From a bacterium (lineage in GTDB: Bacteria > Electryoneota > Electryoneia > Electryoneales > Electryoneaceae), in the NCBI GenBank assembly GCA_020444265.1, contig JAHLLH010000004.1:248001-312000 (forward strand): a stretch of DNA of 64,000 bases. Reading direction: 5' to 3'. This document shows positions 54,052-57,492 of this stretch, piece by piece. The position numbers were made by a program, and so were the translations under genes. The stretch's first letter is position 1. Every line of letters starts with the position of its first letter. The notes beneath the pieces are model-generated. The model was not told where the DNA came from. It worked only from the letters and a program-made list of their open reading frames with translations, and ran no database searches.

Positions 54052-56268
54052 ATGGATATAAATAGGTCGAATAGAACTTATCGTACGAAATGTATCTTAT
54101 GGGCCATACCTCTTGCATTGTTGATGACCTCGATTGGTTCTGCACAAGTTGAACTGGTTGACAAGATTTCCCTTGTGGGTGGATTTCGGGAAGCTGAATC
54201 GTTTGAGGGGAATTGGTATATTCTTGATACCCCAGACCTGCTAAAATCCTCCAGGAACGGGGTGTTGGATTCGACCACACTCGACCTACCCTTTGGGTCC
54301 ATACAACTTCTGGTTCAAGACAATCTGGCAATCATCCGCTTCTGGGAGCACGATGTTCATTTCTATGACCTGTCAGATTCCTGGCCGCCACCTCTACTGA
54401 GTCAACTCCACTTCGTAGATGAGGTTCGCTACATCTCGACCTACGATACCCTGCTTGCAGTCACTCTCGAAAATGATGGGTATCAATTCTACAGTCTTAC
54501 TGATCCGCATGACATCGCCCTTACTGGTTCCATATCCTGGCTTGAACCAGATGAAGAGGAAACGTTTGCGTACCGATCATTGGAGTGGAATGGCGAGTAT
54601 ATGGTTGCGGGGAGAACGTCCAGATACTTCAACCACTCGGAGGGTTGGATGGATCTGCAAGATCAAATTATCTGTTACCAGATAGGAGAGAACGGATCAC
54701 TGACCTTTGTGGATAGCCTTCACACCGCCAACGATAAGCTGGATTTGGTTGATGATCGACTGCTGGTCTGGAATCAATCAATCTACCAGATTGAATCAGA
54801 GGGAGGCTTCACTGAGTTGTTGATGATTCCCAGTCACACCGGCCAAATGGCTGTATTCGATTCGTCGCTTTACGTATCGGCGACAGACTCAACCAGGGTT
54901 GCTCGGTTTTTGCGCCAGTATCGTTTCCAATCCGGCGAACCCATTGTCCTGCAAAACGAGATTGATCTTGATCCCGGATTGTACCTCTCGCTGGCAATCG
55001 ATGATAGCTCAATATTTTGTGGTGGCTCGCAATCAGCAACAATTTTTTCACGTGATCAGACCTCAGGCGTGGTCGGGGATTCCATTGGAGCACTTCAGGG
55101 CGGTCAACGTTCTGTGAATGTTTCACTGTCTGGAAATCGCTTCATCTACATGTCGGATGATGCCAGCCTCACAACAGGGTTATTTGATGAAACGGGCATC
55201 GGCGAATTAGTTCGTCTCCAGAATGACTCTCTTCGTGGATTCGTCGAGCTTAGGGAGTCCCTGCTGATTACCGATCTATCAGGCCCGGGCCTGGGATGGT
55301 GGAATGTCACAGAAAATGCCGTGCAGCTTGTGCGAAGGTTTGGCACCACTGCACTCGATGTAATTATTGCGGACCAAGTAGTTTGGACACTGAATTACCA
55401 GCATGTTATTCAAGCCTACTCAAGAACGAATGGTTCACTCCTCGCCAGTCTTGAGGCGCAAAATGTCACCTTACAGTATATCGATCTGATTGATATGACT
55501 CTTTTCTGTATGTATACTGGGTTTAACGGCAATGGATTTCTTCGATGGAATGTCGCGAATCCAGCTGAACCTGTTGAACTTCCGGGATTGTCCTTTTCCG
55601 GTCCAACTGGTGAGTTTAATGTATTGCAGGGAGGCGAGCATTTCGTCCTCCGAACCGAGCAAGCTGTCAGTCTGAATCAGATTGGTACCGATGGTTCAAC
55701 CTGGGAAATATGGGCGCTTGCATTCCAGGGTTCATATGTCAGAGACATGGAGAAAATAGAGGATCGCTTGCTGGCATTTATCGTTAATGGAGGATCTGAA
55801 ACCCCTGGCGGTCGCCTCTATGTGTATGATATTCAAGCTCAGGGTAACCCAACCCAGGTAACCAACTTTCCGTTGGCCAGCCCTGTTTCCTCTATCTCGA
55901 GTTCCGGACAGTATCTGATGACGGCTGAAGGGAGACGGCTCAGGTTGTTCGATTTAGCAGGCGCTCTTGATACTCCTGAAACAGAAAATAATTTACCCCG
56001 AGGGTTTACTGTTTTTACACCCTGGCCCAACCCCTTCAACGCTAGCGTCACCATCCCCTTTTTCCTGCCGCAATCCGGGGATGTGGGGGTGAAGGTGTAC
56101 AATCTTCTGGGGCAGGAGGTGTGGGGACGGCAGATGGGGGCGATGCCCTCGGGCTGGCACCGGACGGTGTGGGATGCGGATGGGAGTGGGGCTTCGTCGG
56201 GCGTGTACATCCTGCGTCTCGAAGCGGAAGGGAAGCAGGAAATGCGACGAGTGACACTGGTGCACTAA
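54052..56268 (+). CDS. Secreted protein with sorting domain, second copy
   Basis: A 738-residue exported protein. Start ATG 54052 (AGGGA eight bases upstream) gives a signal peptide (CILWAIPLALLMTSIGSAQ). The body has repeated beta strands with LVDKISLVGGF and similar segments, reminiscent of LVIVD or beta-propeller repeat proteins, but no enzyme motif. The tail holds PWPNPFNASVTIPFFLP, VYNLLGQEVW and SGVYILRLEAEGK, the type IX-like sorting domain. Base composition changes abruptly at about 56030: 26 of 60 bases are G or C in 55441-55500, against 41 of 60 in 56101-56160. The sorting domain thus looks separately acquired. A palindromic element starts 13 bases after the stop. Confidence 0.8.
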   Translation: MDINRSNRTYRTKCILWAIPLALLMTSIGSAQVELVDKISLVGGFREAESFEGNWYILDTPDLLKSSRNGVLDSTTLDLPFGSIQLLVQDNLAIIRFWEHDVHFYDLSDSWPPPLLSQLHFVDEVRYISTYDTLLAVTLENDGYQFYSLTDPHDIALTGSISWLEPDEEETFAYRSLEWNGEYMVAGRTSRYFNHSEGWMDLQDQIICYQIGENGSLTFVDSLHTANDKLDLVDDRLLVWNQSIYQIESEGGFTELLMIPSHTGQMAVFDSSLYVSATDSTRVARFLRQYRFQSGEPIVLQNEIDLDPGLYLSLAIDDSSIFCGGSQSATIFSRDQTSGVVGDSIGALQGGQRSVNVSLSGNRFIYMSDDASLTTGLFDETGIGELVRLQNDSLRGFVELRESLLITDLSGPGLGWWNVTENAVQLVRRFGTTALDVIIADQVVWTLNYQHVIQAYSRTNGSLLASLEAQNVTLQYIDLIDMTLFCMYTGFNGNGFLRWNVANPAEPVELPGLSFSGPTGEFNVLQGGEHFVLRTEQAVSLNQIGTDGSTWEIWALAFQGSYVRDMEKIEDRLLAFIVNGGSETPGGRLYVYDIQAQGNPTQVTNFPLASPVSSISSSGQYLMTAEGRRLRLFDLAGALDTPETENNLPRGFTVFTPWPNPFNASVTIPFFLPQSGDVGVKVYNLLGQEVWGRQMGAMPSGWHRTVWDADGSGASSGVYILRLEAEGKQEMRRVTLVH

Positions 56269-56280
56269 CGGAACAATCAC

Positions 56281-56457
56281 TGTCATGCCCAGGCCCCATG
56301 CTGGCCGCAGCCAGCACAGCCAATTGTGTTGGGGCCGTCGGGCATCCCCCGTGGTCGAAGACGATCCCAGGTGCCTCATGTCCAGGGGATCCCCGACGCT
56401 CGCAGGTTCCCTTCGGTCACGATCCGGTTGGCACCGGATTGCGAGCTGGGGATGACA
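56281..56457. repeat. 177-bp cloverleaf element with terminal inverted repeats
   Basis: The ends TGTCATGCCCAG (56281-56292) and CTGGGGATGACA (56446-56457) are inverted copies with one mismatch. Between them are three arms in series: GCCCCA/TGGGGC (56293-56298 with 56330-56335) enclosing GCTGGC/GCCAGC; a 14-base arm 56336-56349 with 56385-56398, one mismatch; and GCTCGCA/TGCGAGC (56398-56404 with 56440-56446) enclosing ATCCGGT/ACCGGAT. No coding potential. It has the form of a non-autonomous MITE-like or REP-like element. Confidence 0.75.
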
Positions 56458-56485
56458 GGACTGTCTCGAATAACACCAAACGGGA

Positions 56486-56510
56486 CGAGCCGTGCGCGAT
56501 GCACGGCTCG
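56486..56510 (-). terminator. Hairpin after the MBL-fold gene
   Basis: A perfect 10-bp stem, CGAGCCGTGC (56486-56495) with GCACGGCTCG (56501-56510), five-base loop, 28 bases past the minus-strand stop. The T tract is poor (TCCCGTTTGG on the minus strand), so termination is plausible but not textbook. Confidence 0.55.
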
Positions 56511-56538
56511 TTCCGTTCCCTGAGGCTGTTCCCTCGTA

Positions 56539-57492
56539 CTACAGTTGTAAATCGATCCCTTCGATCGCGACGAAGATGTCGAGTTCGGCATCGGGGTAGT
56601 TGAGCTGTAGATAGCGACGTGCTTTCAGCAGCAGCTCACGGATGAAGGAATCGGGATAGTTTGGTTCGTGGTGGAAAAGGGCAAGCCGTTTCACATTGGC
56701 CCGTACAGCAATATCGACCCCGATCACCGCCGTCGAGTGGCCCCAATCTTCCTTGACCAGGCTTTCCTCGAGCGTGTACTGGCTGTCAAAGACAAAGAGG
56801 TCTGTTTCGCGGACAAATTCGATCATCTCACGGATCGCTTCGTCGTCGTCCCGTTTGTACTCGCTGTCGCTGGCAAAGACCATCGACTTGCCGCCATGCT
56901 CGACACGATACCCGAAGGATTTGCCAGGGTGCTGCAACTCTTTCGGGATGAAGGAGCCGCCACCTGGCAGGGGATAACGTTGCCCCGGCTCAACCTTGTT
57001 GAAGCGGATATCAGCGGGGAAAACATCGAGTCCGATAGGGAAGTAGTCGGGCATTTGCTGGCCACGGTACCGTCCCTCGAGATTTTCATGGCCGCCATGG
57101 ATGGTGATCTTGTTGCGCTGGAAGAGGGGACCGAAGAAGGGGAAGCCCTGGATATGATCCCAATGGGTATGGCTCATCGCAATATTGAGCTCTGCTTCGC
57201 CTTTGCTGGCGGGGCCATCCATCAGGTGACGTCCCAAATTGCGAATGCCACTGCCCGCGTCGAAGATGATGGAACCACCATCCCAATCAGCGCTGATGCA
57301 GGTTGTGTTGCCACCGACCGTGCCACGTACCAGCATACTGTGGTGTTCACGGAGGTAGCCGGAGACCTGTTCCGGGTCACGGATCCCTGCACGGACCACA
57401 TCCTCGGCCATCGCAATCACTTTGGATTCCACATCGGCCGGGCTGATCGGTGTCGGGATACTACCGCGCACTCCCCAGAACTGCACTCGCAT
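56539..57492 (-). CDS. MBL-fold metallo-hydrolase
   Basis: A 317-residue metallo-beta-lactamase-fold hydrolase. MRVQFWGVRGSIPTP is a hallmark start of one subgroup; the zinc motif HTHWDH is at 108-113, FASDSEY carries the bridging aspartate, and FHHEPNYPD gives a further histidine. The GGNTTCISADWDGGSIIFDAGSG block precedes the metal motif. Relatives act on cyclic nucleotides, phosphodiesters or RNA ends; the substrate here is not predictable. It stands alone and is convergent with the sorting-domain gene. Confidence 0.88.
   Translation of the reverse strand: MRVQFWGVRGSIPTPISPADVESKVIAMAEDVVRAGIRDPEQVSGYLREHHSMLVRGTVGGNTTCISADWDGGSIIFDAGSGIRNLGRHLMDGPASKGEAELNIAMSHTHWDHIQGFPFFGPLFQRNKITIHGGHENLEGRYRGQQMPDYFPIGLDVFPADIRFNKVEPGQRYPLPGGGSFIPKELQHPGKSFGYRVEHGGKSMVFASDSEYKRDDDEAIREMIEFVRETDLFVFDSQYTLEESLVKEDWGHSTAVIGVDIAVRANVKRLALFHHEPNYPDSFIRELLLKARRYLQLNYPDAELDIFVAIEGIDLQL

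Follow-up and report, generated by a model that had tools for sequence, protein, structure and literature searches.

TGTC-tagged head-to-head repeat dimers with branched arms in an Electryoneota genome, and a small GIY-YIG nuclease as their candidate partner

The palindromic element at positions 56281-56457 of the window (the whole 64,000-nt stretch of DNA analyzed here, from what is probably a metagenomic assembly) raises the question of what kind of sequence it is and what could have moved or copied it. It lies between a 761-amino acid secreted-type open reading frame, the stop codon of which ends at 56268, and a convergent gene on the minus strand (56539-57492). An earlier note made from the sequence alone had placed a cloverleaf element with 12-base inverted ends and one mismatch just after the stop codon of a secreted protein. 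Its coordinates and its neighbour proved exact, and so did the ends, 56281-56292 (TGTCATGCCCAG) and 56446-56457 (CTGGGGATGACA), whose sole mismatch is at base 7. No tRNA gene and no Rfam RNA were found in the window. The gap that separates the element from the convergent gene contains, at about 56481-56515, a terminator-like hairpin (CGGGACGAGCCGTGC GCGA TGCACGGCTCGTTCCG).

The element consists of two REP-like units separated by a variable linker. Unit 1 (56281-56349, + strand, 69 nt) starts with the tag TGTC (56281-56284), followed by a stem of ATGCCC (56285-56290) and GGGCAT (56340-56345), which encloses an arm with its own stem (GGCCCC, 56292-56297; GGGGCC, 56331-56336) and a single inner hairpin (56299-56305 with 56310-56316); the unit ends with the tail CCCC (56346-56349). 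After the linker of 35 nt (56350-56384) comes unit 2 in the inverted orientation (56385-56457, - strand, 73 nt), with the tag TGTC at 56457-56454, the stem ATCCCC/GGGGAT, an arm of the two-hairpin type and the tail CCCC. The whole is a complete head-to-head dimer with its tags outside, and the outer consensus extends weakly beyond the tags (C before TGTC, G after GACA).

The element is one of many. A blastn search across the whole genome gave 46 places similar to it; a covariance model built for the half unit (R1) detected at least 150 units, and a pattern search added 2, bringing the number to at least 152. The units form at least 57 dispersed dimers (close pairs), all 57 of which are inverted with the tags outside, and the linker lengths are bimodal, 50 of the 57 being of 18-23 or 34-38 nt. 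There are 38 solo units among those listed, several of which still carry a partner's final bases, the rest of it being lost. The common layout is TGTC-AT(N)CCC-AG-[arm]-CGTC-GGG(N)AT-CCCC, with a length of 67-74 nt in nearly all units, and the arms are branched, either of the one-hairpin type (as 56281-56349) or of two-hairpin types (as 56385-56457). In a set of 50 units, each base of the TGTC tag is conserved in 90% or more. A second copy and conserved pairing were what the earlier note had looked to for its reading of a mobilised non-autonomous repeat, and the many dispersed copies with conserved pairing found here support that reading.

Searches with the covariance model in 60 other genomes, 6 of them from the same taxonomic family, gave no match, and neither did searches of plasmid and viral sequences for the element. 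A pattern scan of 84,980 GTDB species returned 3 matches, located inside apparent coding genes of unrelated bacteria and judged to be due to chance; the genomes that hold them contain no match to the covariance model. As far as can be seen among the searched genomes, which include no second member of the genus, the TGTC-unit family of the element is lineage-restricted. A relative from the same taxonomic family (G003) carries about 50 copies of GTCATCCCGGTGATGAGTTGGGCCGGGATCC, a further YGTC-type repeat that is expanded and has an unusual loop.

As the earlier note had proposed, a single strand of the element can fold, internal arms included, and it does so beyond chance under both sets of parameters: the DNA-parameter fold has -54.5 kcal/mol (z -5.1), the RNA-parameter fold a z of -3.6, and in either case 0 of 200 shuffles folded as well. 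The four-way junction suggested in that note is the predicted minimum-energy fold of this single copy, but it is not the fold that the family conserves. At the mismatch, each base has its partner within its own unit, a C for G7 on the left and a G for C7 on the right, so that the family-wide fold consists of two separate units rather than a four-way junction. Stem pairing reaches 96.5% within units; between units it is 87% for the outer and 86% for the inner pairing. Of the 40 stem positions that differ between the two units of a dimer, 31 keep a Watson-Crick pair in both units, and the left-right pair is therefore broken there; as both units share one consensus, left-right pairing arises for free. 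Among 140 distinct units, 92.6% of cells are paired, covariation is 0.523 (0.140 in shuffled and at most 0.087 in slid alignments) and two-sided changes within units number 681 against 196 expected by shuffling, pairing counts that lean towards the covariance model because the alignment was fitted to it; a MAFFT alignment (A1) gave the same within-unit picture. The first stem position is A-T in 137 of the 140 units and the second T-A in 130, with C-G as a paired replacement in 8. The single mismatch in the inverted ends is thus one of the switched pairs of the family, and what evolution conserves is the separate unit folds, not the four-way junction.

The pairing also bears on whether the folding strand is DNA or RNA. 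In helices 1-3 there are 51 G.T against 35 A.C combinations among 2656 cells, and G.T makes up 2% of the standard pairs. Loop calling, done with DNA folding parameters, gave 43 GNA among 67 triloops and 93 GNNA among 171 tetraloops, only 19 of these GNNA loops being GNRA. GNA and GNNA form stable DNA loops, GNRA being the favourite of RNA. Taken together, the covariation, the scarcity of G.T pairs and the DNA-type loops indicate units that fold one by one as single-stranded DNA. The earlier note also offered a structured RNA. An RNA of this kind that had spread through the genome as a repeat (a terminator, an mRNA stabiliser or a riboregulator) would suit the position of the element just 3' of a stop codon between convergent genes and its strong RNA-parameter fold. 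It is nevertheless disfavoured by the lack of any Rfam match in the window, by G.U being barely commoner than A.C and by tetraloops that avoid GNRA, while the separate hairpin at about 56481-56515 already looks like a terminator; we regard it as improbable.

Among known repeats the closest resemblance is to the CGTC REPs, families CGTC-1 to CGTC-4 (Di Nocera 2013, PMC3733652), which are described as units of 20-40 bp with a terminal unpaired CGTC tag (or TGTC/CCTC), complementary A-T at the first two stem positions, a loop of 4-5 nt and a tail CCA, occurring mostly as head-to-head dimers; they seem to have no dedicated transposase, and CGTC units flank no RAYT (PMC3733652). The family described here shares with them the TGTC/CGTC tag, the two A-T pairs that open the stem, a short C-rich unpaired tail, the head-to-head arrangement (57 of 57 close pairs) and the absence of flanking RAYT genes. 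It differs in its units of 67-74 nt, in the tail CCCC, in an arm branched into 1 or 2 inner hairpins in place of the short loop, in its sharply bimodal linkers and in its presence in one genome only among those searched. Unit size, branched arm and tail make it a relative of the CGTC REPs and not a member of families 1-4. By its sequence layout, the element appears to be a CGTC-class REP dimer enlarged by branched arms. The host genome also contains 69 exact plain repeats GTCATCCCGG..CCGGGATCC.

The REP relationship seen in the earlier note thus stands, for the CGTC class and not for the GTAG/RAYT class. GTAG REPs and REPINs are likewise non-autonomous palindromic dimers, and the RAYT (TnpA-REP) is a dedicated single-copy partner gene bounded by those repeats; they have another tag, and their nuclease is of the HuH Y1 superfamily instead of GIY-YIG. 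The Y1/TnpA-REP type mover that the note had suggested looking for would make the element a GTAG-type REP/BIME. The genome does contain 3 Y1/RAYT-like genes, and the layout is that of a REP dimer, but the element has no GTAG tag and none of the 3 genes is flanked by its family: one is bounded by GTAG-type REPs (C1:212, L032) and the other two by their own long terminal inverted repeats unrelated to the element (C10:120964, L031; C2:142696, L033). Y1 genes are also common in genomes devoid of the family, and a Y1 mover was rejected as quite unlikely. One copy of the family (C2:140795) near a Y1 gene was judged a chance neighbour.

Inverted ends (TGTCATNCCCAG) and dispersed copies could equally describe a MITE, moved by a DDE transposase acting on the 12-base terminal repeats. 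The target-site duplications that the earlier note had proposed to look for were not found above chance in the 57 dimers, match lengths being the same as in shuffled pairs; moreover, the ends are conserved as part of the pairing stem inside each unit, and solo units are frequent. This origin is very improbable. Among the genomes searched, no empty site was found for the element's own family, and movement of that family was not seen.

A different candidate partner came from the gene neighbourhoods of the repeats. The host genome has 4 GIY-YIG genes, one uvrC-like by its length and 3 small, and all 3 small genes are placed among inverted TGTC repeats, each of a different family: the plain repeat ATTCCGGG/ATCCCGGG (L106), the complex family of the element (L107, G000:C11:735140) and the repeat TGTCGTTGCGA... 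(L108). At L107 a solo unit lies 20 bp upstream of the ATG and a dimer 5 bp downstream of the stop codon, so the gene is not inside a simple pair. The surrounding region (C11:735034-737272; L044, L094, L107) holds the GIY-YIG gene within a local array of complex dimers, between which a near-identical spacer, GGATTTGTACGGAATATGT.TATTGAC, recurs. The product of L107 has 92 amino acids and a PF01541 match that spans the complete domain (E 3.5e-16). This match it shares with small single-domain GIY-YIG proteins of known structure (1zg2, 1ywl, UPF0213), which differ in having no assigned repeat target.

The association extends to other bacteria. Inverted repeats were scored across 50 small GIY-YIG genes, taken from the host phylum and from records of Sinorhizobium, Azospirillum, Novosphingobium, Rhizobium, Neisseria, Spirosoma and Planktothrix. 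The score is at least 14 for 35 of these genes, a value reached by 6.4% of cross-genome pairings, by 0 of 250 shuffles and by 0 of the 16 UvrC control loci that have both flanks, where the best score was 13. The sequence of the repeat stem varies with that of the nuclease (Mantel Spearman r 0.45, 0 of 2000 permutations, kinship not modelled; the 8-nt repeat tags were picked by eye before the test), and the nearest neighbour falls in the same class in 36 of 45 cases versus 13; common descent of genes and flanks could be the source of part of the Mantel signal. As predicted beforehand, the ATTCC repeat is present in at least 7 copies in all 12 genomes with an ATTCC-class nuclease, compared with 8 of 27 others (Fisher 3e-5, uncorrected for relatedness); the link is not strict, since those 8 genomes have many ATTCC repeats but no detected ATTCC-class nuclease. 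The gonococcal small GIY-YIG gene is located between CGTC repeats. The literature searched contained nothing on a GIY-YIG/REP link. According to a 2025 report, the Neisseria GIY-YIG nuclease Ssn cuts ssDNA at a repeat and modulates transformation; this Ssn/NTS system reportedly pairs a small GIY-YIG nuclease with a dRS3/CGTC-1-like repeat, and so resembles the pairing described here, differing in that its units are plain short hairpins.

A second small GIY-YIG type (about 82-109 amino acids, motif R..HN..., ..STK..PW) is found next to genes for tRNA-Asn, tRNA-Ser or tRNA-Asp, and duplicated pieces of tRNA surround it (L110, L116, L136, L139, L151 and L153, where tRNA genes were found; L124, by eye only). 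From its surroundings it looks like a tRNA-targeting mobile unit.

Signs of mobility were found in other genomes. In Azospirillum lipoferum 4B a nuclease gene with two CGTC dimers lies between sufB and sufC, and A. ramasamyi, A. oryzae and A. sp. B510 have empty sites without this insertion. Sinorhizobium meliloti Ak57 carries a complete REP-nuclease-REP beside an internally deleted copy, in which just the last codons of the nuclease gene are left between the REPs. Judged from these arrangements, internal deletion of an autonomous REP-gene-REP could be a route to a head-to-head dimer.

We consider it likely that the element is a non-autonomous head-to-head dimer, moved or copied through a small GIY-YIG ssDNA nuclease, for which the 92-amino acid product of L107, encoded beside units of the family, is the best candidate; its activity we infer. 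The units would be CGTC/TGTC-tagged REP-like sequences, the loops of which have grown into branched arms. On an exposed single strand, e.g. the lagging strand of a replication fork, each unit would fold alone into a hairpin flanked by the TGTC tag and the CCCC tail. The candidate endonuclease would recognise tag and stem on this single strand and catalyse its nicking, whereupon the dimer would be copied or inserted elsewhere with no target duplication. Host replication or recombination could do the moving, the nuclease merely cutting. A less probable reading, although one to be taken seriously, makes the repeats a passive target, which the GIY-YIG enzyme cuts to guide recombination or transformation while the repeats spread otherwise. 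The linkage between gene and repeat would hold in that case without proof of transposition, and the reported cutting by Ssn in Neisseria would be a precedent; the REP-gene-REP insertion and the internally deleted copy, on the other hand, look like a single mobile unit in its autonomous and its non-autonomous form.

CGTC REPs are abundant in many phyla, reportedly without a dedicated transposase, and the GIY-YIG link names a candidate, though the report on Ssn lowers the novelty of the general connection between GIY-YIG nucleases and repeats. The chances seem about even that small GIY-YIG nucleases are dedicated mobilisers of CGTC REPs across bacteria, forming with them a class of single-strand mobile elements parallel to RAYT/REP; the host genome would then have evolved a larger variant with cloverleaf arms and a nuclease of its own. 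A GIY-YIG link that tracks sequence suggests a reason for the head-to-head dimers, and it makes the question assayable by cutting and mobility.
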